Below are positions 11,663-26,661 of a DNA stretch of 46,863 nucleotides, piece after piece. The notes under the pieces are model-generated. The model was not told the DNA's origin. It saw only the letters and a program-made list of their open reading frames with translations, and made no database searches. The position numbers and the translations under genes are program-made. Numbering within the stretch: the stretch's first letter is position 1; every line of letters begins with the position of its first letter. Source of the DNA: Pseudomonadota bacterium (GTDB lineage Bacteria > Pseudomonadota > Alphaproteobacteria > Rhodobacterales > Rhodobacteraceae); NCBI GenBank assembly GCA_963205235.1, contig CAUJIP010000125.1, forward strand, positions 1-46,863, written 5' to 3'.

Positions 11663-12772
11663 TTAGCTGATCGCCTCAAGGAAAGCGTTCACGGCAGCGT
11701 CGGTGTTCTGACCCCACCAGGTCGGATCGTTCAGCGCGATCACGGCCATGTTCGCCTCGGACGTGATGGCATAGGGCGCATCCTCGGCCGAAATCATGGC
11801 AACGGCTTCGGGGTTCGTCGGCGTCATGCCAAGGCACGAGAACAGGCCAAGCTGCGCATCGACGGATTGCGACACGGCGATGAACTTCATCACCGCTTCA
11901 CGCCCGCCGGGGTTGCCCTTCGGCACGATATAGGCCCCCGGCATCGCAATCGCCCCGTCCATCACCATCTTGTAGCGACCGTTGGTCTCTTGCTCGATGT
12001 TGCGGCCCCGGTTCTGCCAGACCATGCCCATCGACACTTCGCCGTTGACCAGCATGTCATGCGCCTCAGAGCCCGAACCCCAATAGATCGTGCTGTCCTT
12101 GATCGCCGTGATCTTGGCCAGCGCGCGGTCAAGATCCAGCGGATAAAGCGCGTCCTTGGCGACACCATCGGCCATCAGCGCCGCCTCAAGCGACCCGTTG
12201 GCCCATTTGTACAACGACCGCTGGCCGGGGAACTTTTCCAGGTCAAAGAAGTCGGCCCAGTTGGCCGGGGCGCCGTCCGGATAAGCCTCGGTGTCATACA
12301 TGAAGGCATAGCCGTAAAGGATGATCGAGGTGCCGAACTCCAGCGCATATTGCGGCAGGGTCTTGTCCTTGGACACGACCGCATAGTCGATCGGTTCCAG
12401 ATGGCCGGTGGCCCCAAGCGCAACCGCGTCGAAAAGATCGGCGTCGCAGACATCGGCGGTGACATTGCCGCTGTCGACCATTTCCTTGATCTTGCCCTGC
12501 AGGGGGCCAGAGGTGTCGAACTTCAGCGGCATTCCGGTTTCAGCAGTGAACGGCACGCCGATGGCCGAGCCATGGCATTCCTCGGACTGGCCGCCCCAGT
12601 TCCACATCACGATCTCACCGGCGGCAGCCTCGGCCTTGCCTGCCAGAACGCTGGGCAGCGCCACGCCCGCCATCCCGCAAAGCGCGAGAAAGCTGCGGCG
12701 GTCCAGACGACCGGCGCGGAAGGCATGGGCGGCCTCGGTGACCGTCTCACGCATGAACTGCTTGTCTTGCAT
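11663..12772 (-). CDS. ABC transporter substrate-binding protein, PotD/PotF type, Tat-exported
   Basis: A 369-residue periplasmic solute-binding protein of the polyamine/spermidine-type family. A twin-arginine signal is visible (RLDRRSFLALCGMAGVAL, residues ~22-40), with a likely cleavage site after KAEA, so it probably folds in the cytoplasm before export. Mature sequence starts with GEIVMWNWGGQS. Aromatic residues (many Trp/Tyr, as in WNWGG, YKWANGS, PTWWGQN) could form a cage for a quaternary ammonium ligand; this is inference. The start has GGAGGAAG as ribosome site. It lies between the ATPase gene (upstream) and the permeases. Confidence 0.87.
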   Translation of the reverse strand: MQDKQFMRETVTEAAHAFRAGRLDRRSFLALCGMAGVALPSVLAGKAEAAAGEIVMWNWGGQSEECHGSAIGVPFTAETGMPLKFDTSGPLQGKIKEMVDSGNVTADVCDADLFDAVALGATGHLEPIDYAVVSKDKTLPQYALEFGTSIILYGYAFMYDTEAYPDGAPANWADFFDLEKFPGQRSLYKWANGSLEAALMADGVAKDALYPLDLDRALAKITAIKDSTIYWGSGSEAHDMLVNGEVSMGMVWQNRGRNIEQETNGRYKMVMDGAIAMPGAYIVPKGNPGGREAVMKFIAVSQSVDAQLGLFSCLGMTPTNPEAVAMISAEDAPYAITSEANMAVIALNDPTWWGQNTDAAVNAFLEAIS

Positions 12773-12838
12773 TGGTCTTCCTCCGTGTTGGGGGAGTTGC
12801 CTCCCGGTTTATGGGGCGATTTAGCCCGTCTTTCTGGT

Positions 12839-13828
12839 TCACTCGTCCAGCGGCACCGCCGCGTCGTCCTTCCAGTCAAGCCCCACCTGGGCACCCGGCT
12901 GCAGCGCAGGCCCGCCACGCCAGGCATCGACATCCACCTCCAGCGGGCCATGTTCGGCGGTCTCGATCTGGTATTTCAGCACCGGCCCGAAATAGTTGAG
13001 CGACAGCACCCGACCACTGACCCGACCCAATCCTTGCGCAACAAGGTCAATGCGTTCCGGGCGGATCGACCAGCGGCGGCCATCGCGTTGCAGGAAATTG
13101 CTTTTCCCCAGGAACGAGGCGGCAAATTCGGTACGGGGCCTTGTGTAAAGCTCTTCCGGGCTGCCGACCTGTTCGATCCTGCCGTCCCGCATGATGACCA
13201 CGCGGTCCGACATCGACAGGGCTTCGTCCTGGTCATGGGTGACATAGATGAAGGTCGTACCGACGCGGCGGTGCAGGTCCTTCAGCTGCTCCTGAACCTC
13301 GACCCGCAGCTTGCGGTCCAGGGCACCCAAGGGTTCATCCAGCAAAAGCACCGGCGGCGAAAAGGCCAGGGCACGCGCCAAAGCGACACGCTGCTGCTGG
13401 CCGCCCGAAAGTTCGGACGGCAAGCGCCGCTCCTTGCCGGTAAGCTGGACAAGCTCCAGCATCTCGGCCACGCGACCGGCAATCTCGGCCTTGGGGCGGC
13501 CGCGGACGGACAGCGAATAGCCGATGTTGTCCGCGACCGTCATGTGCGGAAACAGCGCGTAGCCTTGAAACACCATGCCGAAATTGCGCTTTTCGGCAGG
13601 CGTTCCGGTGATCGGCTGACCATCCAGCAGGATGTCGCCCTCGGTCGCGTCCTGAAACCCCGCGATCATCATCAGAAGCGTGGTCTTGCCCGAACCCGAC
13701 GGTCCCAGCAGCGTCAGGAATTCGCCGCGCCGGATTTCCAGGTCAATCCCGGCCACGGCCTGCACAGCGCCATAGCGCTTGACCAGCCCACGAAGCGTCA
13801 GTCCGCCAGAGGCTGCAACGGTCGACAT
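12839..13828 (-). CDS. ABC transporter ATP-binding protein, PotA type
   Basis: A 329-residue ATPase with Walker A GPSGSGKTT (about 43-51), Q-loop VFQGYALFPHMT, signature LSGGQQQRVALARAL, Walker B VLLLDEPLGALD and the H-loop VTHDQDEAL. A C-terminal TOBE-like regulatory domain starts near residue 240 (RWSIRPERIDLV). It energises the PotBC-type permeases encoded downstream. Its ATG overlaps the stop of the BKACE gene by one base (TGATG), tying transport to catabolism. A 66-bp gap follows before the binding-protein gene. Confidence 0.9.
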   Translation of the reverse strand: MSTVAASGGLTLRGLVKRYGAVQAVAGIDLEIRRGEFLTLLGPSGSGKTTLLMMIAGFQDATEGDILLDGQPITGTPAEKRNFGMVFQGYALFPHMTVADNIGYSLSVRGRPKAEIAGRVAEMLELVQLTGKERRLPSELSGGQQQRVALARALAFSPPVLLLDEPLGALDRKLRVEVQEQLKDLHRRVGTTFIYVTHDQDEALSMSDRVVIMRDGRIEQVGSPEELYTRPRTEFAASFLGKSNFLQRDGRRWSIRPERIDLVAQGLGRVSGRVLSLNYFGPVLKYQIETAEHGPLEVDVDAWRGGPALQPGAQVGLDWKDDAAVPLDE

Positions 13829-14718
13829 CAGGCGTCTGCCCCACGAAGTTTCAGTTTGTTCCGGGCCTCTTGCGGCGTCAGCACCCGTGCGCCCATGCGT
13901 TCGATGATCTCACGCGCCCGTTCGACCAGTTGCGCGTTCGTCGCCAGCACGCCCCGGTCAAGGAAGATGTTGTCCTCCAGCCCGACCCGCACATTGCCAC
14001 CCAAGGCCACAGCCGCAGCCGCCATCGGCATCTGCATCCGGCTGATCCCGAAACTCGCCCAGCTTGCTCCGGGGGGAAGCTGCTGCTTCATCGCGGCCAT
14101 GATTTCCACCGTCTGATCGGCGCCCCACGGGATGCCAAGGCACAGCTGGAACATCGGCGGATCGGCCAACAGGCCTTCGGCATACATTGCCTTGGCGAAC
14201 CGGATATGGCCAAGCTCGAACACCTCAAGCTCTGGCTTCACCCCCCATTCCTTGGTCAGCGCGGCCATGCGGCGCAGGATCGGCGGGGTCGAGATATAGA
14301 TCGTGTCGTCATTGCCGAAATTCAGCGTGCCGCAGTCCAGCGAGCAGATTTCCGGCAGGCATTCCTTGATATGCGCCAACCGCTCATCCGGCCCGATCAT
14401 GTCGGTCCCCGGTCCCGGCATCGCCCAGTTGTCCTTGGCTGGTGTCCAGTCGCCACCCATCCCGGCGGTCAGGTTGATGACCACGTCGACGCCGGACGCA
14501 CGCACCCGGTCGACGGTCTCTTTGAACAGCGCCGGATCGCGTGAGCCCTTGCCCGTCTTGGGGTCGCGGACGTGCAGATGTACCGCCGAAGCCCCCGCCC
14601 GTGCCGCCTCGATCGCCGAGTTCGCGATCTCTTCGGGGGTGACCGGAACGTGCTTGCTCTTGCCCGTAGTATCGCCCGCGCCAGTCACGGCGCAGGTCAG
14701 AACGACCTCGAAATTCAT
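13828..14718 (-). CDS. cdhC: BKACE-family beta-keto acid cleavage enzyme (probable dehydrocarnitine cleavage)
   Basis: A 296-residue DUF849/BKACE enzyme. This family condenses a beta-keto acid with acetyl-CoA, releasing acetoacetate and a new CoA ester, with an active-site metal. The metal-ligand motif [10 protein letters not shown] (48-57) and the later GLEDNIF (about 254-260) are visible. Next to a GlxA-type regulator, with carnitine 3-dehydrogenase on its other side, it most likely acts on 3-dehydrocarnitine to give betainyl-CoA plus acetoacetate. This is the role established for CdhC in Pseudomonas carnitine catabolism. The start has a GGGGAGACAG ribosome site. It leads a seven-gene operon reaching the acyl-CoA synthetase. 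Confidence 0.87.
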
Positions 14719-14810
14719 CTGTCTCCCCGTCTTTATGCATGCGGCATTTTGTCAGTCTTGATCCACAAGACGGGCTTTCCTGCCAGTAATTCGACTGATA
14801 TTGTCCCGGC
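14719..14810. promoter_or_regulatory. Divergent promoter region, BKACE operon / GlxA-type regulator
   Basis: This 92-bp gap separates two divergent starts and must contain both promoters and presumably the regulator's binding site. It holds a short ATGC...GCAT symmetry (about 14733-14745), and the minus-strand gene has a good GGGGAG ribosome site. I cannot identify convincing -35/-10 boxes. Confidence 0.35.
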
Positions 14811-15929
14811 ATGTCGAAAAATCGTATCATTGACGGATACCCCGCTGCGGCCGGCAATCTGGCGTCCGAAGCGGCGGCAGGTCAGCCGACTCGGGTGACA
14901 TTCCTGATCGTGCCGCGCTTCAACATGGCGACGCTGATCACCATGATCGAACCCTTGCGGATCGCGAATTACCTTGCCCCGTATCCCCTGTACCAGTGGG
15001 ATATCCTGTCGATGGACGGGACCGAAATCACCGCTTCGAACGGGCTTTCCATCACCGCGCAGCCGGTGACCGAACGCAACCGGCGGGGCGAGACGCTGTT
15101 CGTAATGGCCAGCTGGGGGGCCGAGGATTACCAGAACCGAGAGCTGTTCAGTTGGATTCGCAGACAGGCGCGGGAAGGTGTCCGGATCTGCTCGGTCGAG
15201 CTTGGCTGCTATCTGGTGGCCAAGGCGGGGCTGTTGTCAGGGGCCAGGCTGGCAACGCATTGGTCCTGGGCGCCGGGCTTTCAGGAACAGTTTCCGGACA
15301 TCGCATTGATCGAGCAGATATTCACCCTGGACGATCCCGTCCTGACTTGCGCGGGCGGCCTTGCCGGGGTGGACCTGATGCTGAAGCTGATCGCCGACGC
15401 ACATGGCGACAGCATGGCGGGCGAGGTTGCCGACCAGATGCTGCACCACCCGATCCGCCCGGCGACCGCCCCGCAGCGGCGGACATTGGGGCAGGGGATC
15501 GACACCTTGGCCCCCGTCCTGCGGCAGGCGATCACGCTGATCGAACGCAACATCCCCGAACCCCTGACCGTGCCCGAGATTGCCGCGACCCTTGGCATCT
15601 CGCAGCGCCAGTTGGAACGGCAATTCCACCGTGGGGTCGGCTGCTCGGTCGTGCAGTTCGGAACGCTTGTCAGGCTGCAACATGCACGGGTGCTGCTGAT
15701 TTCAACCAAACTGACCGTGCGCGAGATTGCCACCGCCACCGGGTTCAACACCCTGTCACATTTCGCCTATGCGTTCCGCAAATGCTTTGACCGGCGGCCC
15801 AGCGATTATCGGCAGGCTTGGCCTACAAAGGACGCAACGCCAAGCTGGCCCGGCACCCTGACCCGGTATCTTGAGACGCTGCACCAACGCGCCTCCCGCG
15901 CGGTGCGGGAAGGCAAACACAGCGCCTGA
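14811..15929 (+). CDS. cdhR: GlxA-family AraC-type regulator (CdhR-like, carnitine responsive)
   Basis: A 372-residue regulator with an N-terminal DJ-1/PfpI (GATase1-like) domain (about 28-205: VTFLIVPRFNMATLITMIEPLRIAN) and a C-terminal AraC pair of HTH motifs (about 245-340). The second HTH region includes VREIATATGFNTLSHFAYAFRK and RRPSDYR. The position of the DJ-1 nucleophile reads Glu rather than Cys (VELGCYLVAKAGLL), as expected for a sensor rather than an enzyme. This architecture is shared by CdhR, GbdR and SouR, which control carnitine, betaine and sarcosine genes. Its location between BKACE and carnitine dehydrogenase supports the CdhR assignment. The ribosome site ahead of the ATG is poor, so the exact start is uncertain. 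Confidence 0.87.
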   Translation: MSKNRIIDGYPAAAGNLASEAAAGQPTRVTFLIVPRFNMATLITMIEPLRIANYLAPYPLYQWDILSMDGTEITASNGLSITAQPVTERNRRGETLFVMASWGAEDYQNRELFSWIRRQAREGVRICSVELGCYLVAKAGLLSGARLATHWSWAPGFQEQFPDIALIEQIFTLDDPVLTCAGGLAGVDLMLKLIADAHGDSMAGEVADQMLHHPIRPATAPQRRTLGQGIDTLAPVLRQAITLIERNIPEPLTVPEIAATLGISQRQLERQFHRGVGCSVVQFGTLVRLQHARVLLISTKLTVREIATATGFNTLSHFAYAFRKCFDRRPSDYRQAWPTKDATPSWPGTLTRYLETLHQRASRAVREGKHSA

Positions 15930-15942
15930 TCCCGGCCAGTGA

Positions 15943-16009
15943 CCGATTTCTTCTAAGAAATCGGACCGGAGCCTTCAAAGACTCCGAACCGGAATTTTCG
16001 AAAATTCCG
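15943..16009. terminator. Three tandem hairpins between convergent genes
   Basis: Three adjacent inverted repeats fill the gap between the regulator and carnitine dehydrogenase. First: CCGATTTCTT (15943-15952) with AAGAAATCGG (15955-15964), perfect 10-bp arms. Second: CGGAG (15967-15971) with CTCCG (15982-15986), extended by an inner CTT/AAG pairing. Third: CGGAATTTTC (15990-15999) with GAAAATTCCG (16000-16009), a perfect 20-bp palindrome. They can act as bidirectional terminators; the regular triplet layout is unusual for a simple terminator. Confidence 0.75.
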
Positions 16010-16011
16010 CC

Positions 16012-16956
16012 CTATGACCGCGCGTCGCGGATCGCCTTCAGGACGGCCACGATTTCATGGTCACGGGTCGCCGCCATTTCGGTGAAATGCCGATCCCCGG
16101 CAATGGCGTTGCAGCCGTCGACCATCCGATCCCGCAGCTCTTGTGTCAGTTCGGGGGCCTCAAGCCGGGTCCAGGGCCATTTCAGCGCCGGGCCGAACTG
16201 GTCAAGGTTCGTGGCCATCCCGCCCTCGCCGCAGGCGACGTGAAAGGCCATGCATTGCCCCTGCACCGCCATCCGGGGGGCAGGTCCGTTCATCAGCGCT
16301 ACGTCGATATCCTCGGGCGTCGCCTCGCCATTTGCGACCATGTGCAGCGCCTCACGCCACAGCGCCTCTTGCAGACGGGTCGCGACGAAACCGGGGATTT
16401 CCTTCTTCATGATCAGCGGCGCCTTGCCTGCGACCTTGTAGAACTCCGCCGCCCATTCGACCGCTGCCCGGTCGGACTTCTTGCCGCCGACGATTTCAAC
16501 CAGCGGCAAAAGGTAAGGCGGGTTGAACGGATGGGCGATGACGGTCCGTTCCGGCGACGGGCACAGCGCCTGAATATCACTCATCATCAGGCCCGAGGTT
16601 GACGAGCCGATGACACAATCGCGCGGGGCCAGACGCCCAAGCTCGGCATAAAGCGCCTGCTTGATGTCCAACCGTTCCGGCGCGCTTTCCTGAATGAACT
16701 GCGCGTCCTTGACCGCGTCGGCAAGGTTGTCAGTCACCCGCAGCCGGGCCCGCGACGCCCCCGGTGCCAGACCAAGTGCCGTCAGGCTGATCCAGGCAGT
16801 GTCGATCACCGCCATCAGCGCATCCTTTTCCGCCATGGAATGGATATAGGCCGTCACATCATAGCCGCGCGCCAGAAAATGCGCGGTCCAGCCGCCGCCG
16901 ATCGGCCCCGCGCCAAGGCTTGTCACACGGGTGACGGATTTCGGATCAGGATACAT
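16012..16956 (-). CDS. lcdH: L-carnitine 3-dehydrogenase
   Basis: A 314-residue 3-hydroxyacyl-CoA-dehydrogenase-fold protein. It has the NAD motif LGAGPIGGGWTAHFLARG (residues 14-31), SSTSGLMMSDIQA and the long HPFNPPYLLPLVEIVGG typical of carnitine dehydrogenases (CdhA/LcdH). It oxidises L-carnitine to 3-dehydrocarnitine with NAD+, the substrate for the BKACE enzyme across the regulator gene. The ATG at 16956, one base after the stop of the CaiD-like gene, has AAGGGG upstream. It is the last gene of the ALDH/monooxygenase/hydratase operon. L-gulonate or lambda-crystallin-type dehydrogenases are the main alternative, made unlikely by the context. Confidence 0.88.
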   Translation of the reverse strand: MYPDPKSVTRVTSLGAGPIGGGWTAHFLARGYDVTAYIHSMAEKDALMAVIDTAWISLTALGLAPGASRARLRVTDNLADAVKDAQFIQESAPERLDIKQALYAELGRLAPRDCVIGSSTSGLMMSDIQALCPSPERTVIAHPFNPPYLLPLVEIVGGKKSDRAAVEWAAEFYKVAGKAPLIMKKEIPGFVATRLQEALWREALHMVANGEATPEDIDVALMNGPAPRMAVQGQCMAFHVACGEGGMATNLDQFGPALKWPWTRLEAPELTQELRDRMVDGCNAIAGDRHFTEMAATRDHEIVAVLKAIRDARS

Positions 16957-16957
16957 C

Positions 16958-17755
16958 TTAACGCCCCTTGAAGACTGGATCACGTTTCTCGACGAAGGCG
17001 GCGACGCCTTCCTTGGCATCTTCCGAGGTCAGCATCGCCCGATAGATCGGCAAGTCACCCTCGCGCATGGCCTTGAACGCCTGCTCCAACGGCAAGCACT
17101 GGATCGCGCGTTCCACCTCTTTCACCGTCTGCATCGCCAAGGGGGCCGAGGCGGCAATCTGGTCCGCCCATTCCCGCGCCGCCGCCATCTCTTGCCCTTT
17201 CGGCACGACCTTGTTGACCAGCCCATAGCGCGCAGCTTCATCGGCGGTCATCTTGCGGCCCAGAAGGAACATCTCATTCGCGATGTTGCGCGGGATCAGG
17301 CGCGGCAGGCGTTGCAGGGCACCGGCATCCGGCACGATCCCCAGCGGCATTTCCGGCAGGCCAAAGGTCACATGATCCCCCGCGATGATCAGGTCGCAGG
17401 ACATCGCAATCTCAAAACCCCCACCAATGGCCATGCCGTTCAGCGCACAGATCACCGGCTTGTTCAGCCGCCAGTTCTCGGTCAACCCGGCAAAACCGCC
17501 GTCGCCGTAATCCTCTTCCCACCAGTTGTTCAGCGCCATGTCGCCCTGGTTCAGCGCCTTCAGGTCCCAGCCCGCCGAAAAGATCCGGTCGCCCGACCCG
17601 GTCAGGATCGCGCACCAAAGATCGGGATCGTCCCGCAAAAGGGCGAAGGCCGCCCCCATTTCCTGGCTCATCGCCCGGTCGATGGCATTGACCTTCGGTT
17701 TGTTCAGCGTGACCTCAAGAACCCGGCCGCGCCGGACCAGTTCGACATGGCTCAT
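16958..17755 (-). CDS. caiD: CaiD-like enoyl-CoA hydratase (crotonobetainyl-CoA hydratase)
   Basis: A 265-residue crotonase that visibly resembles E. coli CaiD: KPKVNAID, FSAGWDLKA, GGFAGLTE, NGMAIGGGFEIA and EKRDPVFKGR at the C-terminus. Both catalytic glutamates are present, E115 in GGGFE and E135 in GLPE. CaiD hydrates crotonobetainyl-CoA to L-carnitinyl-CoA. Here that would connect an acyl-CoA dehydrogenase product to carnitine, which the next gene's dehydrogenase oxidises. I chose the ATG at 17755 (GAGGGC upstream), seven bases after the monooxygenase gene. A generic enoyl-CoA hydratase remains possible. Confidence 0.82.
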   Translation of the reverse strand: MSHVELVRRGRVLEVTLNKPKVNAIDRAMSQEMGAAFALLRDDPDLWCAILTGSGDRIFSAGWDLKALNQGDMALNNWWEEDYGDGGFAGLTENWRLNKPVICALNGMAIGGGFEIAMSCDLIIAGDHVTFGLPEMPLGIVPDAGALQRLPRLIPRNIANEMFLLGRKMTADEAARYGLVNKVVPKGQEMAAAREWADQIAASAPLAMQTVKEVERAIQCLPLEQAFKAMREGDLPIYRAMLTSEDAKEGVAAFVEKRDPVFKGR

Positions 17756-17762
17756 GATGCCC

Positions 17763-18797
17763 TCAGCGGAAAGCGGGGATGACATGCTTGCAGAACAGCT
17801 CAAGCGAGCGTTTCTGTTCCTCCAGCCCATAGCCCATCGAGGCGTAATAGATGAAGTCATCCACCCCCATCGCCTGATAGGGCTTCAGCTTGGCGATCAC
17901 CTCATCCGGCGTGCCGAACATCAGGTTGTTGGTCAGCATCTGCGGGTCGTATTCCGCGCGGTTGGCCACCGATTCCAGCGGGATTTCCTTGGGGAAGCCG
18001 TCAATCACGCCGCCAAGGTTCTTGAACAGGTTCTCGAACTGCGACAGTTGGCGCTGGGCGGCGCGAACTGGTGACATCCAGTCCTCTTTCCGGTCATAGA
18101 CCGCCGTGTGCCGCATCATCGCCATCGTCGGGCGCTTCTTGCCGGGGTTCGCGGCCACCGCCTCGTTCAGCCGGTCCATATAGGTCTGCGCTTCGTCCAT
18201 GCCACGGGTCAGGGGCCAGGACATGATGTTGCAGTTGTTCTTCACCGCATAATCATAGGTGATCGGCGCACGGGCGGCGACCCAGACCGGAACCTCTTTC
18301 TGCAGGGGTTTCGGGCACGAGGTGGCGGTCGGGAAGTTCCAGAACTTGCCGTTGTGTTCGGTATCGCCCTGCCACAAGGCCCGCACCAAGGGCAGCATTT
18401 CCTGCATGTGTTGCCAGGCGTCCGATTGCTTCAGCCCCGCAGCCATCCGGTCAAACTCGCGCTGATAGGCGCCCGAGCCGATGCCGAACTCCAGCCGCCC
18501 GTTCGAGATCAGGTCAACAAAGGCCGCTTCGCCCGCCAGCTTGATCGGGTGCCAATAGGCCGCAACGGCAACCGCAGTCCCCAGCCGGATGGTCGAGGTA
18601 TTTTCGGCCCACCATGTCAGAATGGAAAACGGGTTCGGCGCGATGGTCATTTCCAGCGCGTGGTGTTCGGCGGCCCAGACGATGTTGAACCCGCCTTCCT
18701 CGGCCATCTGGACCATCTCGATCGTGTGACGCGCGACGTCGCGCATATCCAGCGAAGCGTCCATCCGCTCCATGTTGATGGCGAGTTGGAATTTCAT
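17763..18797 (-). CDS. Luciferase-like (LLM class) flavin-dependent monooxygenase
   Basis: A 344-residue bacterial-luciferase-family TIM-barrel oxygenase (MKFQLAINMERMDA, WAAEHHALEMTIAPNPF, LEFGIGSGAYQREFDRM) that would use reduced FMN and O2 supplied by a separate flavin reductase. The fused flavin reductase domain at about 22.8-23.7 kb in the divergent operon is the obvious partner. RutA and the trigonelline oxygenase TgnB belong to this broad class and open N-heterocycles or cleave C-N bonds, which may hint at a cyclic or N-methylated amine substrate. The start has AGGAG six bases upstream. The substrate cannot be read from the sequence. Confidence 0.85.
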   Translation of the reverse strand: MKFQLAINMERMDASLDMRDVARHTIEMVQMAEEGGFNIVWAAEHHALEMTIAPNPFSILTWWAENTSTIRLGTAVAVAAYWHPIKLAGEAAFVDLISNGRLEFGIGSGAYQREFDRMAAGLKQSDAWQHMQEMLPLVRALWQGDTEHNGKFWNFPTATSCPKPLQKEVPVWVAARAPITYDYAVKNNCNIMSWPLTRGMDEAQTYMDRLNEAVAANPGKKRPTMAMMRHTAVYDRKEDWMSPVRAAQRQLSQFENLFKNLGGVIDGFPKEIPLESVANRAEYDPQMLTNNLMFGTPDEVIAKLKPYQAMGVDDFIYYASMGYGLEEQKRSLELFCKHVIPAFR

Positions 18798-18822
18798 CGT
18801 CTGTCTCCTGGACTGGATTGGT

Positions 18823-20301
18823 TCAGCGCATCACAAAGGGATTGGCGATGGGCTCGGATGAGGTGTTGACCCAGATCGTCTTGGGCCGCGTATAGTCGAA
18901 CATCGCCTGAAAGCCGCTTTCGCGCCCATAGCCCGAGCCTTTGACCCCGCCAAAGGCTGCAATGGGCGACACCGCGCGGTAGGTATTGACCCAGACGATC
19001 CCGGCACGGACGGCCTTGGCCACCCGCATCTGCCGCGCGCCGTTCAGGGTAAAGATCCCGGCGGCAAGGCCGTGTATGGACGCATTGGCCAGCGCAATCG
19101 CTTCGGCTTCGGTCTTGAAGCGCAGGACGGAAAGGACCGGCCCGAAAAGCTCGGTGTCAACGATGGTCAGGTCGGGCCGGGGGCAGTCGATGATGGTGGG
19201 TTCAAAATAGGTGCCACCCAGGCCGGGGGGCTGCTTGCCGCCAACCAGAACCGTGCCGCCTTCTGACTGCGCCAAGGCGACCTGCCGTTGGATATGCGCA
19301 AGCTGGCCCTCGGTGCACAGCGGCCCCATCTGGGTTTCTTCCGCCAAGGGGTCGCCGATGCGGATTTCCTTGGCCATGGCCACCATGCGCGCCAGAAATT
19401 CATCCGCCACGCTTTCATGGATGATCAACCGCGAGCCTGCGACACAGCTTTGCCCCGTCGCCCCGAAGATCCCGGCAATCGACCCGTTGACCGCGCTTTC
19501 GATATCGGCGTCTTCAAACACGATGAAGGGCGATTTTCCGCCAAGCTCCAGCGACACTTCGGCAAAGTTCTCGGCCGAATTGCGTACGATGGCCCGCGCC
19601 GCATTCGGGCCCCCGGTAAAGGAAACCCGCGCCACCAACGGGTGGCTGGTCAACACCCGACCAACCTCGTTGTGCCCGGTGACGATGTTCACCACCCCCG
19701 GCGGAAAGCCCGCCTCGGCAATCAGCCGACCAAAGTCCAGCATCGCCACAGAAGCATGTTCCGACGCCTTCAGCACCACCGTATTCCCCGCCGCCAGCGC
19801 AGGGCCGATCTTCACCGCCGTCAGGAAAAGTTGCGAGTTCCACGGCACGACCGCCGCCACCACGCCCAAGGGCTCGCGGTTGGAAAAGACGAACAGGTCC
19901 GGCTTGTCGATCGGCAGCACTTCACCCGACAGCTTGTCGGCGGCCCCGGCGTAGAAATGGAAGAACTCGGCGATGTATTTCGCCTGCCAGCGGGTTTCCT
20001 TCAGCATCTTGCCGGTGTCGACGGTTTCGGCCCGGCCCAACTCTTCCGACTTCTCTGCCAGAAGGTCGCCCAACTTGCGCAAGCATTTCCCGCGTTGGCT
20101 GGGGGTCATGCTGGCCCATGGTCCCGAAGTGAACGCGCGGTCCGCCGCGCGAACCGCACGGTCGACATCGGTACCGGTCGCTTCGGGGATGCGCGCCCAA
20201 GGCTTGCCGCTGATCGGCGAGACGCTGTCAAACGTCGCCCCGTCCGACGCCGCGACCCAGTCGCCGTCGATCAGCATCTGACAGTCCCTGATCTGATCCA
20301 T
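18823..20301 (-). CDS. NAD(P)-dependent aldehyde dehydrogenase
   Basis: A 492-residue aldehyde dehydrogenase with the oxyanion-hole Asn in VPWNSQ (N155), general base E252 in LELGGKSP and nucleophile C286 in GQSCVAGSR. The start at 20301 is preceded by GGGAGGA. It opens the minus-strand operon that continues with the LLM oxygenase, CaiD-like hydratase and carnitine dehydrogenase. Candidate substrates are 4-trimethylaminobutyraldehyde (giving gamma-butyrobetaine) or an aldehyde from oxidative ring or C-N cleavage by the neighbouring monooxygenase. The sequence does not decide between them. Confidence 0.87.
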   Translation of the reverse strand: MDQIRDCQMLIDGDWVAASDGATFDSVSPISGKPWARIPEATGTDVDRAVRAADRAFTSGPWASMTPSQRGKCLRKLGDLLAEKSEELGRAETVDTGKMLKETRWQAKYIAEFFHFYAGAADKLSGEVLPIDKPDLFVFSNREPLGVVAAVVPWNSQLFLTAVKIGPALAAGNTVVLKASEHASVAMLDFGRLIAEAGFPPGVVNIVTGHNEVGRVLTSHPLVARVSFTGGPNAARAIVRNSAENFAEVSLELGGKSPFIVFEDADIESAVNGSIAGIFGATGQSCVAGSRLIIHESVADEFLARMVAMAKEIRIGDPLAEETQMGPLCTEGQLAHIQRQVALAQSEGGTVLVGGKQPPGLGGTYFEPTIIDCPRPDLTIVDTELFGPVLSVLRFKTEAEAIALANASIHGLAAGIFTLNGARQMRVAKAVRAGIVWVNTYRAVSPIAAFGGVKGSGYGRESGFQAMFDYTRPKTIWVNTSSEPIANPFVMR

Positions 20302-20356
20302 ACCGATCCTCCCAATCCGTTCCGACAATCTTGACGGCCTCGCTTGGCAGAGTATT

Positions 20357-20388
20357 TCGAATATTCGACGTCGGATGGCGAATATTCC
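20357..20388. promoter_or_regulatory. Pair of AATATT-centred operator-like palindromes, 21 bp apart
   Basis: A perfect 12-bp palindrome TCGAATATTCGA (20357-20368) is followed by GGCGAATATTCC (20377-20388 region). Their AATATT cores start at 20360 and 20381, exactly 21 bp (two helical turns) apart. They lie in the 144-bp gap between the divergent ALDH and RidA genes, as expected for a repressor or activator controlling both operons. No known consensus was matched. Confidence 0.6.
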
Positions 20389-20445
20389 AAATCCATAACC
20401 GCTTCGGAATGCAATCTGAAAAGGGGCCATGAAAGGGATTGCCGC

Positions 20446-20835
20446 ATGCAGAAACAGATCATCGGTGAGCCGCTTGTCATCAACGGGCGAAAGCTTAGCC
20501 TGTCCCGCGCCGTTCGGGCCGGGGATATGGTCTATCTGACCGGGCAGGTTCCGATGCAGGACGGTCAGGTGATGACCTGGGGCACGGTCGAAGACCAGAC
20601 CCGCGCTGTGCTGGACGAGATTACCAAGACCTTGGCCTTGGCAGGATGCACACGGGATGATGTTGTGAAAACAATGGTCTGGCTGAAAGACCGCGCCGAT
20701 TTTCCGGGCTTCAATGCGGTTTATGGCGAATACTTCCCGACCGATCCGCCCGCCCGGTCCGCCCTTGTCAGTGACTTCCTTGTCGACATCCGGGTCGAGG
20801 TTGAAGTCGTTGCCTACAGCCCAAGGGGGCGCTGA
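20446..20835 (+). CDS. RidA/YjgF/RutC-family protein
   Basis: A 129-residue RidA-family protein (LSRAVRAGDMVYLTGQVP ... PPARSALVSDFL). The arginine that binds the carboxylate of imines/enamines in archetypal RidA is present (R104). It probably hydrolyses a reactive imine or aminoacrylate-like intermediate, as RutC does in pyrimidine breakdown. The chosen ATG (20446) gives the usual length and has AAAGGGA about ten bases upstream; longer in-frame sequence would run through the palindromes at 20357-20388. It is the first gene of a plus-strand operon and overlaps the hydrolase gene by one base (TGATG). Confidence 0.83.
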   Translation: MQKQIIGEPLVINGRKLSLSRAVRAGDMVYLTGQVPMQDGQVMTWGTVEDQTRAVLDEITKTLALAGCTRDDVVKTMVWLKDRADFPGFNAVYGEYFPTDPPARSALVSDFLVDIRVEVEVVAYSPRGR

Positions 20836-21632
20836 TGACCCTGCGCGATCCCCACGGAACCGCCTATGATCTGACCGGCCCCGATGGCGCTCCGGTCGTT
20901 GTGCTGGTCCATGGCCTTGGCCTGAACCGGGCAGTCTGGCAGTGGATGATTCCCGATCTGGCCCAGCGATTCCGGGTTCTGACCTTTGATTTCCTTGGCC
21001 ACGGCGAAAGCCCGCCCCCCACCGGCCAGCCTTCCTTGCGCGACCTGTCCGAACAGCTTCGCGCGCTGCTTGACCATCTGCACATCGCCAAGGCCGCCAT
21101 CACCGGCTTCTCGCTTGGCGGCATGGTTGCGCGGCGTCTTGCGCAGGATCACCCTGACCGGGTTTCCGCGCTGGTGATCCTGCATTCGGCCCATCGCCGC
21201 AGCGAAAAGGCGCAGGCCGCAATCCTGTTCCGGGTTGCCCAAGCCGACGATCACGGCCCCGCCGCCACCGTCGAACTGGCGTTGGAGCGTTGGTACACTG
21301 ACGCCGCCCGCGCCACCCGGCCCGACCTGATGGACCTGACCCGGAGATGGGTGCTGGCCAATGACCCCAAGGTCTATCCCAAGCTTTACCGCATCCTTGC
21401 GCACGGCATCGACGAAATCGTCGCCCCGTCACCTGCAATCACCCAGCCCACACTGGTCATCACCGGGGACGAAGATTTCGGCAACGGCCCCGAGATGAGC
21501 GCAGCCATCGCCGCCGAAATCCCCGGCGCGCGTCTGCTGATTCTGAAGGGCCTGCGCCACATGGCCTTGGCCGAAGACCCCGCCGCCGTGAACCGACCGG
21601 TCCTCGATTTCCTGACCGAGGTCCTTTCGTGA
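20835..21632 (+). CDS. Alpha/beta hydrolase (RutD / 3-oxoadipate enol-lactonase-like)
   Basis: A 265-residue alpha/beta-fold hydrolase with oxyanion-region HGLGLN, nucleophile elbow GFSLGG (S93), a late acid in TGDEDFGN and the catalytic His in GLRHMALAE. The family includes enol-lactonases, RutD-type aminoacrylate hydrolases and amide or ester hydrolases. Located between a RidA protein and a flavin-reductase fusion, it could hydrolyse a ring-opened amide, lactone or carbamate. Its start overlaps the RidA stop, and the next gene's GTG start overlaps its own stop, so all three are coupled. Confidence 0.83.
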   Translation: MTLRDPHGTAYDLTGPDGAPVVVLVHGLGLNRAVWQWMIPDLAQRFRVLTFDFLGHGESPPPTGQPSLRDLSEQLRALLDHLHIAKAAITGFSLGGMVARRLAQDHPDRVSALVILHSAHRRSEKAQAAILFRVAQADDHGPAATVELALERWYTDAARATRPDLMDLTRRWVLANDPKVYPKLYRILAHGIDEIVAPSPAITQPTLVITGDEDFGNGPEMSAAIAAEIPGARLLILKGLRHMALAEDPAAVNRPVLDFLTEVLS

Positions 21633-23710
21633 CCGGCATCCTTGCGGGTCTGCGGGTGCTGGACCTGTCGCGCATGCTCTCGGGGCCTTACGCCACGATG
21701 ATGCTGGCCGACCATGGGGCCGATGTGATCAAGGTCGAGGATGCCCATGGCGATACGTCCCGCGCCAACGGGCCGTTCCGCGACGATGATCCGGGCCACG
21801 ACTGGGCAGGCTATTTCGTCAGCCTGAACCGGTCGAAGAAAAGCATCGTCCTTGACCTGAAGTCCGAAGCTGGCAAGACGACGCTGCGCAAGATGGTCGC
21901 CCATGCCGATGTGCTGATCGAAAACTACCGTCCCGGCGTGATGGAACGGCTGGGCCTTTCCTATGAAAGCCTGTCCGAAATCAATCCCCGCCTCGTCTAT
22001 GCCGCGATCCGGGGCTTTGGCGACCCGCGCACTGGGACCAGCCCCTATGCCAACTGGCCCGCCTATGACGTGGTTGCGCAGGCGATGGGCGGGCTCATTT
22101 CCGTCACCGGCCCCGACCGCGCCCATCCCATCAAGACCGGCCCCGGCATCGGCGATGTCTTCGCCGGAATGGTAGCCGCCTTTGGCATCCTAGCCGCCGT
22201 CCGGTCTGCCGAGGCGACCGGGAAGGGCCAGTTCCTTGATGTCGCCATGTATGACGCCATGCTGTCCTTGTGCGAACGCCTCGTCTACCAGCACGACTTC
22301 GACGGCACCGTGCCCGGACCCGAAGGCAACGGCCATCCGCTGCTTGCGCCTTTCGGCCTTTTCCCGGCCAGTGACGGCTTGGTGGCGATTGGCGTGGTGG
22401 ACGATGCCTTCTGGTGCGTGCTGGCCGAAGTGATGGGGCAGGGCGCGCTTGGGCTTGACCCGGCCTATGCCACCCGCGCCGCGCGCCGGGTGAACATGAC
22501 CGCCGTGAACGCCATGGTCAGCGACTGGACCAAGGGCCACAGCGTTGCCGACCTGACCGCGCTTCTGGGCGGCCGCATCCCCTTTGGCCCGGTCAATGAC
22601 ATCAAGGCGATCTTTGCCGACCCCCATGTCGCCGCGCGTGGGATGATTGCCACCATCCCCCATGCCGAACCGGGCAAGCGCCCGTGGCGGGTTGCCGCCA
22701 ACCCCCTGCGCTTTGCCGAAGCGCGTGCACCGGCACCTGTTGCCCCCGCTCGCCTTGGGGCTGATCAGGCTTTGACCAAAACCGAACCGAAACCCCAGAT
22801 CGACCCCCGCGCCCTCCGCAACGCCTTCGGCGCTTTCGCAACCGGCGTCACCGTCATCACCAACCGCCAACCCGACGGCACCCCGCGCGGCTTTACGGCC
22901 AACAGCTTCACTTCCGTCTCGCTTGATCCGCCGCTTGTGCTGGTCTGCCTTGCGAAATCCGCTCATTCCGTCGATGTCTTCGCCACTGCTCCACATTTCG
23001 CCGTGAACATCCTGGCCGAGGATCAGAAGGCGGTTTCCGGTCTTTTCGCCTCCCGCGCGCCAGACAAGTTTCAGCAATGCGACTGGACCCCCGGCCACGC
23101 CGATGTGCCGGTCCTGTCAGGCGTGCTGGCCCAGTTCACCTGCTCTCGCCACCGACTTGTCGATGCGGGCGACCATCTGGTGCTGATCGGGCTGGTCGAG
23201 GATTTTGCCACGCGCGAAGCCCAACCTTTGGGTTATTTCCGGGGCAACTACTTCTCGGTCGGGCTTGAACACGATCTGGTCAAGGCCGCTGCCGCCACGG
23301 GCAGCCGGATCGGCGTCGTTCTCGCCTGCGAAGATGGCGTCCTCCTCCGCGAAGGCGCGGGCAAGCTTTCCCTCCCGCTCTCACCCGGCCCGAACCCCTC
23401 GCTTGAAGCGCTGCGCACAAGCCTCACCGCTCAAGGCCTGACGCCCGAGATCGACTTCGTCTACGCCGCTTTCGATGACCGCACGACCGGTGGCCACGCG
23501 ATCTATTACCATGGCTGCGCGACCGGCCCGGTTCCGACCGGCTACTGCGTCCTGCCTCTGGCCGATCTTGCCGCAGCACCGCTCGCCAACGCGGCCGAGG
23601 CGCAGATGCTGGCCCGCTATGCCCAAGACTTCCGAAATGGCAGCTTCGGCATCTATCATGGCACTGAAACCACAGGCTCCGTCCGTCAGGTCGCGACGAG
23701 CCTCGACTGA
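21629..23710 (+). CDS. CaiB/BaiF CoA-transferase fused to flavin reductase plus C-terminal domain
   Basis: A 693-residue three-part protein. Residues 1 to ~385 are a class-III CoA-transferase (LRVLDLSRMLSGPYATMMLADHGADVIKVE) with the catalytic Asp at about D209 in VAMYDAMLSL. Residues ~390-555 are a flavin reductase of the HpaC/RutF type (FGAFATGVTVITNR, GFTANSFTSVSLDPPLVLVCL, FAVNIL). Residues ~560-693 form an unrecognised domain (RIGVVLACEDGVLL ... FVYAAF ... FGIYHGTE), faintly Nudix-like but without a Nudix box. The reading frame is continuous across both joints. It starts with GTG overlapping the hydrolase stop, with GAGG upstream. I infer a CoA-activation function and an FMNH2 supply for the LLM oxygenase in one chain. 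I do not recall this fusion being described. Confidence 0.87.
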   Translation: MTGILAGLRVLDLSRMLSGPYATMMLADHGADVIKVEDAHGDTSRANGPFRDDDPGHDWAGYFVSLNRSKKSIVLDLKSEAGKTTLRKMVAHADVLIENYRPGVMERLGLSYESLSEINPRLVYAAIRGFGDPRTGTSPYANWPAYDVVAQAMGGLISVTGPDRAHPIKTGPGIGDVFAGMVAAFGILAAVRSAEATGKGQFLDVAMYDAMLSLCERLVYQHDFDGTVPGPEGNGHPLLAPFGLFPASDGLVAIGVVDDAFWCVLAEVMGQGALGLDPAYATRAARRVNMTAVNAMVSDWTKGHSVADLTALLGGRIPFGPVNDIKAIFADPHVAARGMIATIPHAEPGKRPWRVAANPLRFAEARAPAPVAPARLGADQALTKTEPKPQIDPRALRNAFGAFATGVTVITNRQPDGTPRGFTANSFTSVSLDPPLVLVCLAKSAHSVDVFATAPHFAVNILAEDQKAVSGLFASRAPDKFQQCDWTPGHADVPVLSGVLAQFTCSRHRLVDAGDHLVLIGLVEDFATREAQPLGYFRGNYFSVGLEHDLVKAAAATGSRIGVVLACEDGVLLREGAGKLSLPLSPGPNPSLEALRTSLTAQGLTPEIDFVYAAFDDRTTGGHAIYYHGCATGPVPTGYCVLPLADLAAAPLANAAEAQMLARYAQDFRNGSFGIYHGTETTGSVRQVATSLD

Positions 23711-23729
23711 CCCAAGAAAGGACTTACCC

Positions 23730-24335
23730 ATGTCGCTTCCCGAACTCCGCAAGGTCGTAAACTATGACGAGGATATCCTCTCCGACGGTGGCCGCGCCGC
23801 CAATCCGCCCCTGCGGATGATCGGGGTCGCCGCCGTGGTCACCAACCCCTGGGCTGGGCGGGGTTACGTCGAAGACCTGCAACCCGAAATCCGCCGCATG
23901 GCCCCCGTCCTTGGCAAGCTTCTGACCGACCGGCTGATCGCTTTGGCCGGATCAGGCGACGCCATCGAAGCCTATGGCAAAGCCGCCATCTGCGGCACGG
24001 CTTGTGAGCTGGAACACGGCTCGGCCCTGATCCACACCCTGCGTTTCGGCAATTTCTTCCGCGAGGCGGTGGGCGCGAAAACCTATCTTGGCTTCACCAA
24101 CTCACGCGGGCCCGCCAACACCCAGATCCAGATTCCCCTGATGGACAAGCATGACGGCGGACGGCGGTCGCATTACCTGACCGTGCAATTCTCGATCCCC
24201 GACGCCCCCAGCCATGATGAACTTGTCGTGGCCCTTGGCGCATCGACCGGCGGGCGTCCGCATCACCGGATCGGCGACCGCTACAAGGACCTTGAGGATA
24301 TGGGCCGCGACGTCGAAAATCCCGCCGGGGTCTGA
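23730..24335 (+). CDS. DUF1185 / 'amino acid synthesis' family protein
   Basis: A 201-residue protein (MSLPELRKVVNYDEDILSDGG, NPWAGRGYVEDLQPEIRRMAPVLGKLL, GKAAICGTACELEHGSALIHTLRFG, NTQIQIPLMDKHDGGRRSHYLT) of the AA_synth/DUF1185 family. Its biochemical role is not established to my knowledge despite the family name. It is the last gene of the RidA-hydrolase-fusion operon, 19 bp after the fusion gene, with AAGAAAGGAC as ribosome site. By position it could be a ring-opening or amide-processing hydrolase replacing RutB in a Rut-like pathway; this is speculation. It converges on the kinase/phospho-lyase gene with a 10-bp gap. Confidence 0.85.
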   Translation: MSLPELRKVVNYDEDILSDGGRAANPPLRMIGVAAVVTNPWAGRGYVEDLQPEIRRMAPVLGKLLTDRLIALAGSGDAIEAYGKAAICGTACELEHGSALIHTLRFGNFFREAVGAKTYLGFTNSRGPANTQIQIPLMDKHDGGRRSHYLTVQFSIPDAPSHDELVVALGASTGGRPHHRIGDRYKDLEDMGRDVENPAGV

Positions 24336-24345: not shown

Positions 24346-26661
24346 TCAAAGCTGCGCCAGGGCCCGCTCCAGCGCGGCAAGCGCAAAGTCAGCGTCCGCC
24401 GCCGTGAACACCAGCGGCGGGCGCATCTTGACGATATTGCCAAGCACGCCCTCACTTCCCGCCAGAATGCCCTCGTCGCGCATCAGCCCCAACAGCCGGT
24501 CGGTCTGACCTTGCGCCGGGGCCAAGGTCTGCCGGTCGCTGACCAGCTCCATCCCGAAGACCAACCCCATCCCCCGCACATCGCCGATGATCGGGAACCG
24601 GTCCCTCAACCGCAGCAATCCCGCCTTGAACCGCCCCCCGACATCGCGGGCACTGTCCACCAGACCCCGGTCGCGGATTTCATCCAGCACCGCCAACCCC
24701 GCCGCACAAGACACGTTGTTGCCACCGAAGGTCGAAAAGAACGCCGTCTGCTCAAGGAAATGGTCCAAAATCTCGGGCCGTGTCAGCACGACGCCAATCG
24801 GGTGACCATTGCCCGCAGGCTTGCCGATGGTCACGAAGTCCGGTGTCACCCCATGGTGCTGATAGCCCCAGAAATGATCCCCCATCCGGCCAAAGCCCGA
24901 CTGCACCTCGTCGGCGATGCACAGGCCACCCGCCGCACGAATGCGGGCGAAAAGCTCTGCCACATAACCGGGCATCGGCTCCAGCACGCCATTGGTCAGA
25001 AACGCGCTGTCGGTGATCACCGCGGCAGGTTTCATCCCCGCTTCCGCCAAAGACCGGATCGCCCGGTCCGCGTCCATCGCATAGCGCCGCCCCAGATCGG
25101 GTGTCCCATGCTTGAACGGCCCACGATAGCCATCCGGTCCAAGCACGGTGCGCACATGATCCGGCGTCTTCGCCGCACGCAATGCGCTGGGCGACAGGGC
25201 GTCAATCGCCTCGGTGATCCCGTGATAGGCGAATTCTTGGGTGATCGCGCCCCGGTTCCCCGTCCATGCCCGCGCCATGCGCCAGGCGATGTCATTCGCC
25301 TCGGACCCTGAATTCACGAAAGCACAAGCCGTCAACGCGCCACCCGTCAGTGCCCCCAGCCGTTCGGCATAGTCCAAGAGATGCTCGCCCAGATACCGGG
25401 TGTTGGTGTTCAAAATTCGGGTTTGCGCGGCAATCGCATCGGCCACGCGCGGGTTGCAATGCCCGACAATGGGAACATTGTTGTAAAGGTCCATATACCG
25501 GCGACCATCAACGTCGATCAGCCAGACCCCCTCGCCCCGTACCAGATGCAACGGCGGGTCATAGAAGACATAGGGCCGTCCGCCCATCACCTTGCCCCGC
25601 CGCGCCATCATCTCGGCCACCGACTGCCCCGACACCGGCGCCGACAGCCCCGCCGCCCCCGCCAGCCGCGCCGTTACCTTCCCCGCGTCCAAGGCCAGCA
25701 CCGCCGCCAACCCCTCCGTCGACCCGAACCCGGCGTCCCGGATGTAATCCGCCTGATCCCCGGCCTCCTCGGCGCGGGTCATGGTGATCAGCAGCGTCAC
25801 CAACAGCCGCGCAAGCGTCAGGTCGACCAGAAGCTCCACCTCCTCCGGCTCGATCCGGCGCTGACCCGCATAGCCTTCGACCAGCGCCGACCAGATCGCC
25901 AGCGTATCCGGCCCGTCATGCAGGAAATCGGCCAAGGCATTGGTCAGGTTCAGGATGCGTGGCCCATGGACCATGTCGCCGAAATCGATCACCCCGCTGA
26001 TCGCGCGGTCTGGCCCAAGCACCAGATTGTGGCCGTGGATATCGCCATGGATCACCTGCGCCTGCAACTTTTCCAGCCTTGGCAGGATATTCGATGCAAA
26101 TCGCGCAATGAACTGGTCGGCCCAGTCCTGATGCGCGCCAAGATAATGCGTCTTGCCCGCAAGCTTCGGCAGTTCGCGCACGTCCCACAACAGCCCCCGT
26201 CCCCCAAGGGCGGGATGAAAGAACCCCCGCATCCCCTGTTCGACCCGTGCAATCATCCGACCGATGTCGCGAAAATCGGTCGGCTGAAGCCCCGCGTCCG
26301 AGACGACGCTGCCGGGCAACCAACTTAGCGCAAAGCAGGTATGGCTGGCCCCGTCCTTGCCGCGCAGAGTGACAACAGGCTGTCCCGCCCTTCCCAAAAG
26401 CACGCGCGGAAGGGGAAGATCAGGCGCGGTGCGGGCCAGAAACTGCAACGCCTGAACCTGCGCCTCGATCAGCGCAGACTCCTCCAGCGTATTCGATATC
26501 TTCAGGACAAAGTCGCCCTGATCCCCGCCCGAGACCCGGAAATTCAGGTCGCGTTCGCTGTAAAGCTCGGTCAGTTTCCCCGTCAGCCCGAACTCCCCCT
26601 GCGCAAGCTCCTCGACAGCGGCCATGGGAAAGTCGGGGCGATTGGCGATCAGGAATTTCAT
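24346..26661 (-). CDS. Fused APH-type kinase and class-III PLP aminotransferase/phospho-lyase
   Basis: A 771-residue bifunctional protein. The N-terminal half is an aminoglycoside-phosphotransferase-like kinase with HGDIHGHN (205-212) and the metal motif DFGD (226-229). The C-terminal half (from ~355) is a class-III PLP enzyme with NSGSEANDIAWRMAR, DEVQSGFGR and the lysine motif TIGKPAGNGHP, closely like ethanolamine-phosphate and 5-phosphohydroxylysine phospho-lyases. The likely logic is phosphorylation of an amino-alcohol's hydroxyl, then elimination of phosphate and ammonia to give an aldehyde. Substrate candidates are hydroxylysine, ethanolamine or a related amino alcohol. In animals the two activities are separate proteins (HYKK, PHYKPL). 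The ribosome site is weak. The gene stands alone, convergent with the DUF1185 gene. Confidence 0.85.
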   Translation of the reverse strand: MKFLIANRPDFPMAAVEELAQGEFGLTGKLTELYSERDLNFRVSGGDQGDFVLKISNTLEESALIEAQVQALQFLARTAPDLPLPRVLLGRAGQPVVTLRGKDGASHTCFALSWLPGSVVSDAGLQPTDFRDIGRMIARVEQGMRGFFHPALGGRGLLWDVRELPKLAGKTHYLGAHQDWADQFIARFASNILPRLEKLQAQVIHGDIHGHNLVLGPDRAISGVIDFGDMVHGPRILNLTNALADFLHDGPDTLAIWSALVEGYAGQRRIEPEEVELLVDLTLARLLVTLLITMTRAEEAGDQADYIRDAGFGSTEGLAAVLALDAGKVTARLAGAAGLSAPVSGQSVAEMMARRGKVMGGRPYVFYDPPLHLVRGEGVWLIDVDGRRYMDLYNNVPIVGHCNPRVADAIAAQTRILNTNTRYLGEHLLDYAERLGALTGGALTACAFVNSGSEANDIAWRMARAWTGNRGAITQEFAYHGITEAIDALSPSALRAAKTPDHVRTVLGPDGYRGPFKHGTPDLGRRYAMDADRAIRSLAEAGMKPAAVITDSAFLTNGVLEPMPGYVAELFARIRAAGGLCIADEVQSGFGRMGDHFWGYQHHGVTPDFVTIGKPAGNGHPIGVVLTRPEILDHFLEQTAFFSTFGGNNVSCAAGLAVLDEIRDRGLVDSARDVGGRFKAGLLRLRDRFPIIGDVRGMGLVFGMELVSDRQTLAPAQGQTDRLLGLMRDEGILAGSEGVLGNIVKMRPPLVFTAADADFALAALERALAQL

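Follow-up and report, generated by a model that had tools for sequence, protein, structure and literature searches.

The subject of this study is a gene island on contig CAUJIP010000125.1 (assembly GCA_963205235.1) of a Pseudomonadota bacterium from the Rhodobacteraceae, of which positions 1-46,863 (the window) were analyzed. The original prediction, made from the letters of the DNA, had described eight genes at 16012-24335, and all eight were indeed found with their stated domains in the list of open reading frames (ORFs) and by Pfam. Outward from a common control region, the minus strand encodes an aldehyde dehydrogenase (ALDH), an LLM flavin monooxygenase, a CaiD-like hydratase and a carnitine-dehydrogenase-like enzyme; the plus strand encodes RidA, an alpha/beta hydrolase, a CaiB-type coenzyme A (CoA)-transferase fused to a flavin reductase, and a DUF1185 protein. 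The island reaches further left, to about 6710, and the eight genes are the right half of a span of 6710-24335. Beyond the carnitine-dehydrogenase-like gene, the window has the same order as plasmids pSR3 of Aminobacter and pW43B of Parasedimentitalea marina: a GlxA-family regulator and BKACE are followed by an ABC importer of four genes, and this by an acyl-CoA dehydrogenase (ACAD) and an "acetate--CoA ligase family" enzyme. Aminobacter pSR3 differs in that its reductase is separate and the CoA-transferase is absent at the corresponding place. The island couples a core of the trigonelline ring-opening type to an arm of carnitine-type CoA enzymes, and it is this coupling that is new. Its features are as follows; the starts of two minus-strand CoA genes were chosen to fit the lengths of relatives, and L086 is a locus on another contig of the same genome.

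6710-8800, minus strand: NDP-forming acyl-CoA synthetase, "acetate--CoA ligase family" (AcsADP; arm); 57% identical by tblastn to the annotated gene in Aminobacter pSR3
8797-9963, minus strand: acyl-CoA dehydrogenase (arm); NCBIfam acyl-CoA dehydrogenase models, every one below cut-off; 53% to the ACAD of L086
9960-10751, minus strand: ABC permease 2; kept in island order
10748-11593, minus strand: ABC permease 1; kept in island order
11663-12772, minus strand: ABC substrate-binding protein of the polyamine/gamma-aminobutyrate (GABA)/opine type; PDB sequence matches to a polyamine binder, a GABA sensor and an agropine permease
12839-13828, minus strand: ABC ATPase; kept in island order
13828-14718, minus strand: BKACE (arm); Pfam BKACE, 333 bits against a gathering score of 24.8
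14811-15929, plus strand: GlxA/GbdR-like AraC-family regulator; NCBIfam GbdR, 247 bits, cut-off 480
16012-16956, minus strand: carnitine-dehydrogenase-like 3-hydroxyacid dehydrogenase (HADH; arm); Pfam/NCBIfam; about 39-40% to the genuine carnitine dehydrogenase of the genome
16958-17755, minus strand: CaiD-like crotonase/hydratase (ECH; arm); crotonobetainyl-CoA hydratase model, 317 bits, cut-off 500
17763-18797, minus strand: LLM flavin monooxygenase, TgnB family (core); Pfam Bac_luciferase; 40% to TgnB of Acinetobacter PK01
18823-20301, minus strand: aldehyde dehydrogenase, TgnC-like (core); Pfam/NCBIfam; 55% to TgnC of PK01
20302-20445, no strand: shared divergent control region, the 144-bp gap between the operons; conserved among loci
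20364-20382, no strand: conserved palindrome TTCGNC-N6-TGNCGAA, a probable regulator site; TTCGAC-N6-TGGCGAA in the window
20446-20835, plus strand: RidA-family protein (core I); Pfam; below the RutC cut-off
20835-21632, plus strand: alpha/beta hydrolase (core); Pfam; nearest NCBIfam models PcaD-like, 170-176 bits, below cut-off
21629-23710, plus strand: CaiB-type CoA-transferase fused to a TgnA-like flavin reductase; Pfam
23730-24335, plus strand: DUF1185/AA_synth protein, TgnF-like (core); Pfam, 232 bits; 61% to the DUF1185 protein adjoining tgnABC in PK01

Conservation of the island and its control region

Co-occurrence was surveyed in 295 genomes from the Rhodobacteraceae, with matches accepted at E values of at most 1e-60 for the LLM, 1e-115 for arm-type BKACE and 1e-100 for arm-type hydratase. 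The LLM was matched in 78 genomes and was at least 56% identical in 29. Arm-type BKACE and arm-type hydratase were each found in 12; these were the same 12 genomes, and all were among the 29. Such an overlap has a chance of about 7e-14 if the genomes are independent, a value that is a guide only, the genomes being related. Arm-type BKACE was absent from 17 of the 29.

Gene neighborhoods were compared at 113 loci, namely the best 80 of 472 relatives from named genomes, 30 places from the family search, the two plasmids and the window; removal of six exact repeats (judged by LLM DNA) left 107 distinct loci. An arm was scored when at least two of HADH, ECH and BKACE were above threshold in the fetched stretch, and many contigs were short. 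An arm with core I, the type of core to which RidA belongs, was present at 33 loci, core II only at 23, core I only at 20, an arm only at 14, an arm with core II at 2 and neither nearby at 15. ECH and HADH were adjacent in 49 of the 49 loci with both, LLM and ECH in 48 of 50, and ACAD and AcsADP in 30 of 30, and ALDH and RidA were divergent neighbors in 41 of 45. The gene arrangement is far beyond chance. Co-occurrence in relatives had been named beforehand as the check on the original prediction, and with the same 12 of 295 genomes and these adjacency counts the outcome was strongly positive: the co-occurrence and the conserved neighborhood uphold its view that the flavin oxygenase set and the carnitine-type CoA enzymes belong together as a catabolic island.

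Several apparent exceptions were followed up. Among the loci with core I only, diverged arm genes below threshold are present in L164 and in the fragment L169, and L053 belongs to a genome whose arm is at L046; a search of the complete sequence of six genomes with core I only found no BKACE above 53% identity. Of the 14 loci with an arm only, four (L119, L125, L126 and L129) have ALDH, RidA, hydrolase, CaiB and DUF1185 directly beyond the synthetase, two (L094 and L096) have ALDH, hydrolase, CaiB-reductase and DUF1185 elsewhere in the genome, and two more (L137 and L165) have a type II core elsewhere in the genome (L139 and L221); the other six were left outside these assignments. DUF1185 was present in all 12 genomes tested. 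The neighbors of core-only loci were mostly kept through a common chromosomal place and gave no clue to the substrate. Type II loci, weighed as a possible homarine variant, add a thiamine pyrophosphate (TPP) enzyme (L148:12464-14519), whose nearest model is sulfoacetaldehyde acetyltransferase (421 bits, cut-off 620), and in several of them a 122-aa protein adjoins the TPP enzyme.

The island occurs mostly in Alphaproteobacteria, including the two plasmids, and a diverged form is present in a gammaproteobacterial metagenome-assembled genome (L164); an island-type oxygenase is also found in records titled Acidimicrobiales. The island is real and conserved, and it is probably transferable. We demonstrate here its gene content and order, the kinship of its families, their co-occurrence and a conserved operator-like palindrome.

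This palindrome, TTCGNC-N6-TGNCGAA, lies between ALDH and RidA, and its conservation there agrees with the proposal of one control region for both divergent operons. Of 41 homologous gaps, 28 have it exactly and 36 have it with no more than one mismatch; when 40 of the gaps were shuffled, no exact copy arose, and about 0.3 of 40 had it at one mismatch. With up to two mismatches it was present in all 32 loci that have a GlxA-like gene (at least 80 bits) in the fetched stretch. Nine loci lack that gene, some of them cut by contig ends; six have the palindrome and three (L045, L048 and L050) do not. The GbdR-like protein of the island may bind it. The GlxA-like regulator is divergent from BKACE in 33 of the 33 loci with both, and within two mismatches the palindrome was found in 2 of 34 BKACE-GlxA gaps; the ALDH-RidA palindrome does not explain the control of the left half of the island. 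As a marker the palindrome was uninformative, both in the window (150 matches with three mismatches allowed, 162 expected) and genome-wide (10 strand matches at 8 places, the island included, versus 6 for a reversed control). Its value as evidence comes from conservation at one place.

Kinship of the core to trigonelline genes

In the degradation of trigonelline, which occurs in plants and in the sea, the ring is opened to an N-methylformamido butyrolactone, and oxidation and hydrolysis then lead to succinate semialdehyde. TgnA/TgnB open the ring, as stated in an excerpt of PMC8269262. Among the type III relatives of the island LLM, which are about 40% identical to it, is a gene of Acinetobacter sp. 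PK01 with the annotation tgnB; in PK01, DUF1185, hydrolase, tgnA, tgnB and tgnC lie together. Identities between the window and PK01 were 40% for the LLM, 55% for ALDH, 39% for the flavin reductase, 28% for the hydrolase and 61% for DUF1185, and in an excerpt of PMC7913881 a DUF1185 protein is described as a homologue of TgnF from A. baylyi. Thus, reductase, oxygenase, ALDH, hydrolase and DUF1185 are a set common to the island and trigonelline degradation, and the earlier comparison with trigonelline genes was correct in sequence terms. As in the Tgn cluster of Acinetobacter, a two-component LLM oxygenase, flavin reductase, ALDH, alpha/beta hydrolase and DUF1185 are in one cluster; unlike it, the island adds RidA, the CoA-transferase-reductase fusion, the CoA arm with BKACE and the GbdR-like regulator, and has no recognized second ALDH of the succinate-semialdehyde type. 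The fusion is an ORF of 693 aa with CoA_transf_3 at 5-379 and Flavin_Reduct at 401-544 (Pfam), and in 25 of 25 loci with both domains above threshold they were in one open frame.

In an LLM tree of 121 rows (without L132), 10 of the 11 tgn-labeled rows form a starred side (100) together with PK01 tgnB, and the window is on another starred side; the eleventh tgn-labeled row, L070, is a long branch elsewhere. The LLM is of the TgnB family but, judged by this tree, outside the annotated tgnB clade.

The original prediction had also likened the core to the Rut set. LLM, RidA, alpha/beta hydrolase and flavin reductase do have the same broad folds as the Rut proteins, but the likeness goes no further than fold families: scores were 60 bits against a cut-off of 169 for RutC, 88 against 238 for RutD and 82 against 255 for RutF, and the core proteins have nearer kin in the Tgn cluster. 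Among the 25 listed of the 32 NCBIfam models matching the LLM, none was above cut-off and RutA did not appear. A Rut-type pyrimidine pathway, rejected on these model scores, has next to no probability.

Related genes were seen at other places. A type IV variant on pAt of Agrobacterium fabrum C58 (L038:9466-20319) comprises reductase, ALDH, LLM, hydrolase, CMD, NIPSNAP and DUF1185, and this locus also has a ProXWV betaine transporter. The genome studied here has a second DUF1185 gene (L087:10983-11504, contig C91) that is 35% identical to the island copy, with no TgnB-type neighbors recognized. A decayed LLM copy (G014:C39:117265-118248) has 42% identity and six in-frame stops.

The CoA arm, its direction and the candidate substrate

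The stretch L086 holds BKACE, carnitine dehydrogenase, ACAD, synthetase and hydratase, and all five have counterparts in the arm, with identities of 53%, 39%, 53%, 38% and 41%, respectively. The dehydrogenase of L086, a 506-aa ORF, is above the cut-off for carnitine 3-dehydrogenase (755 versus 592 bits). The arm enzyme is far shorter and below both carnitine cut-offs (309.8 versus 414 and 271.4 versus 592 bits, NCBIfam); the earlier label "carnitine dehydrogenase" is accordingly corrected to carnitine-dehydrogenase-like. With the crotonobetainyl-CoA models, the arm hydratase (317 bits) and that of L086 (just 305 bits) both stay below the cut-off of 500, as do the ACADs of the arm (157.5 bits) and of L086 (178.3 bits) below 540. 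By sequence, then, the arm is a second, diverged set of five carnitine-type (gamma-butyrobetaine/carnitine) enzymes. With the genuine carnitine cluster elsewhere in the genome, carnitine is disfavored as the direct substrate of the island. The carnitine/BKACE island of SAR11, in an excerpt of PMC12421898, has a gene set other than that of the window.

From these data we infer the reactions, the order of arm then core and the class of the substrate. Our leading, still tentative, interpretation is a catabolic island for an N-heteroaromatic betaine of the pyridinium type, with a Tgn-like core and an arm that acts before it; the most likely substrate would be such a betaine with a carboxyalkyl side chain. 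In the arm, the synthetase would put CoA on the side-chain carboxylate, ACAD and the CaiD-like hydratase would produce a 3-hydroxyacyl-CoA, the CaiB-type transferase would swap the CoA, after which the free hydroxyacid could be oxidized, and BKACE would use acetyl-CoA to cleave the product to acetoacetate and an onium acyl-CoA shorter by two carbons. The shortened compound would be the substrate of the core, in which LLM with the fused reductase, ALDH, hydrolase, DUF1185 and RidA would act like TgnA/B/C and their partners. Ring opening with reduced flavin and O2 would yield an N-formyl enamide aldehyde for ALDH to oxidize, and hydrolase, DUF1185 protein and RidA would release formate, an amine and a short acid.

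The direction is suggested by the LLM tree, in which the 107 type I/II rows are on one starred side (99), and within it loci are intermixed whether or not they have an arm and whichever core, I or II, they have; at least six changes on starred branches are needed to account for type II alone. Because the LLM types interleave, the LLM substrate is probably shared across types while the downstream sets are swapped. Since the same clade also occurs without an arm, and beside two alternative sets of downstream genes, the arm is more likely to feed the core than to drain it, and we regard it, with some reserve, as a plausible optional module upstream of the core through which a larger compound reaches the LLM. 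The original prediction had the product of the oxygenase entering carnitine/CoA metabolism; the separate carnitine cluster and the armless LLM loci point rather to an arm upstream. The importer, whose kinship fits an onium or amino-acid-like substrate, is related to a Pot-type importer at the trigonelline-type locus L075, and ProV-type betaine transporters are found at some arm loci.

Several observations weigh against an arm-then-core pathway for a pyridinium betaine. The LLM is just 40% identical to TgnB. The core is inconstant: at the thresholds used, RidA was not found in L102, L106 and L110, nor flavin reductase in L039 and L107. Of the 107 loci, 15 have neither arm nor core nearby, and many of the contigs are short. 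The BKACEs of the window and L086 differ at 53 alignment positions (one a gap) that are conserved, by the standard of 90% agreement or more in a set of 40 BKACEs taken from the loci with repeats counted; the differences include M228N, Q229E and M232Y in a stretch following a conserved Arg that presumably lines the substrate pocket. Because of these 53 differences, the arm substrate is probably other than carnitine, and it may not be an onium at all. We know of no abundant natural pyridinium compound with a four-carbon carboxyalkyl side chain. Moreover, the CaiB domain is co-operonic with hydrolases and nearer to dicarboxylate CoA-transferases (391.9 bits for succinyl-CoA:mesaconate CoA-transferase, cut-off 700) than to L-carnitine CoA-transferase (132.8 bits, cut-off 413), it goes with the arm (present in 24 of the 33 core-I loci that have an arm and in 2 of the 20 that lack one), and modules of C5 type adjoin the core in some genomes.

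The last three points favor an arm that acts downstream. In this alternative, the core would produce an unsaturated C4/C5 (amino) acid, crotonobetaine-like or glutaconate/mesaconate-like, from an N-heterocycle, and breakdown of the acid by CoA-transferase, hydratase, dehydrogenase and BKACE would yield acetoacetate and a short acyl-CoA. Such a drain of a C4/C5 diacid fits the CaiB domain, whose closest models are those of mesaconate and glutarate CoA-transferases, and a C5-type set (CoA-transferase, ACAD, MaoC, CitE and MmgE) is present beside the core at L035, with parts at L133, L134 and L169. However, loci with an arm retain the hydrolytic set, the arm is missing from core-only loci within the same LLM clade, and the ACAD and synthetase of the arm would be superfluous for a product that is already unsaturated. 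We consider a downstream arm rather unlikely.

The kinship of the LLM to TgnB would also fit an LLM clade acting on a known pyridinium betaine, homarine or trigonelline, directly, while the arm serves a second compound through the same transporter and regulator. Homarine was reported to be abundant in surface-ocean particles, up to 3% of particulate carbon in the surface ocean according to a 2021 abstract (PMC8269262), values that a later correction calls overstated. A homarine pathway reported in 2026 (Nat Microbiol; cited in PMC13390433) probably also opens the N-methylpyridinium ring. Against this alternative, trigonelline-type LLMs form a clade of their own (type III), and the adjacency of LLM and ECH noted above argues for a single pathway. 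The homarine marker N-methylglutamate dehydrogenase was not recognized in the loci inspected, though no systematic search for it was made. Sox-like matches lie near the LLM at L097, L098, L148, L151, L152, L154, L158 and L166, and two of them (L148 and L151) were scanned. The L148 match is one 817-aa protein that hits both SoxB- and GcvT/SoxA-type models far below cut-off and was therefore rejected as separate N-methylglutamate dehydrogenase subunits; the L151 protein had no NCBIfam match. Overall, a homarine- or trigonelline-specific LLM is unlikely.

Finally, the substrate of the LLM might be an aliphatic betaine, such as delta-valerobetaine or the product of its shortening, in which the enzyme cleaves a C-N bond and ALDH then oxidizes the aldehyde set free. 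The GbdR-like regulator is consistent with this, as are the ProVW betaine transporters at arm loci L045 and L046, where the Pot-type importer was not found. Simple N-dealkylation, however, does not explain the five-gene core common with tgn, including DUF1185 and the hydrolase, and an aliphatic substrate appears quite improbable.

Neighboring genes and significance of the island

Adjoining the island, positions 440-6713 hold an apparent serine-cycle set, labeled by eye from ORF translations: malyl-CoA-lyase-like, a LuxR-type regulator, an aminotransferase (serine-glyoxylate type), a malate-thiokinase-like pair and hydroxypyruvate-reductase-like. This set could assimilate C1 units from N-methyl groups. 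A tRNA-Glu called there by ARAGORN (5130-5225, minus strand) lies inside a long plus-strand ORF (4835-5728) and is probably a false positive. On the other side, 24346-26661 encodes a 771-aa protein of the PRK06148 type (below cut-off), in which a kinase-like N-terminal part is fused to a class III aminotransferase; among the loci compared, it is kept beside the island at high identity (84%) only in L091. Further on, 27188-32635 encodes thiolase, 3-hydroxyacyl-CoA dehydrogenase and enoyl-CoA hydratase (by eye) and a bifunctional salicylyl-CoA 5-hydroxylase (1229.9 bits, cut-off 1078), apparently an aromatic-CoA pathway separate from the island.

A literature search for the families of this gene set in combination found no paper on it, and neither did searches on trigonelline and homarine, judged by titles and the starts of abstracts; in the literature searched, the island is undescribed. 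It is widely shared and carried by named environmental strains such as Pseudogemmobacter humi CIP 111625, Parasedimentitalea marina W43, Aminobacter sp. SR38 and Shimia gijangensis DSM 100564, its substrate is narrowed to a testable class, and it gives a context for DUF1185, a family long labeled "amino acid synthesis". N-methylated pyridinium betaines were recently recognized as part of the labile carbon and nitrogen in surface waters. It is doubtful that bacteria of freshwater, sea and soil have a pathway devoted to the pyridinium equivalents of gamma-butyrobetaine and carnitine, onium acids with the nitrogen in an aromatic ring, in which carnitine-style chain shortening with BKACE precedes TgnB-like ring opening; if true, such a route would imply an unrecognized class of natural betaines.

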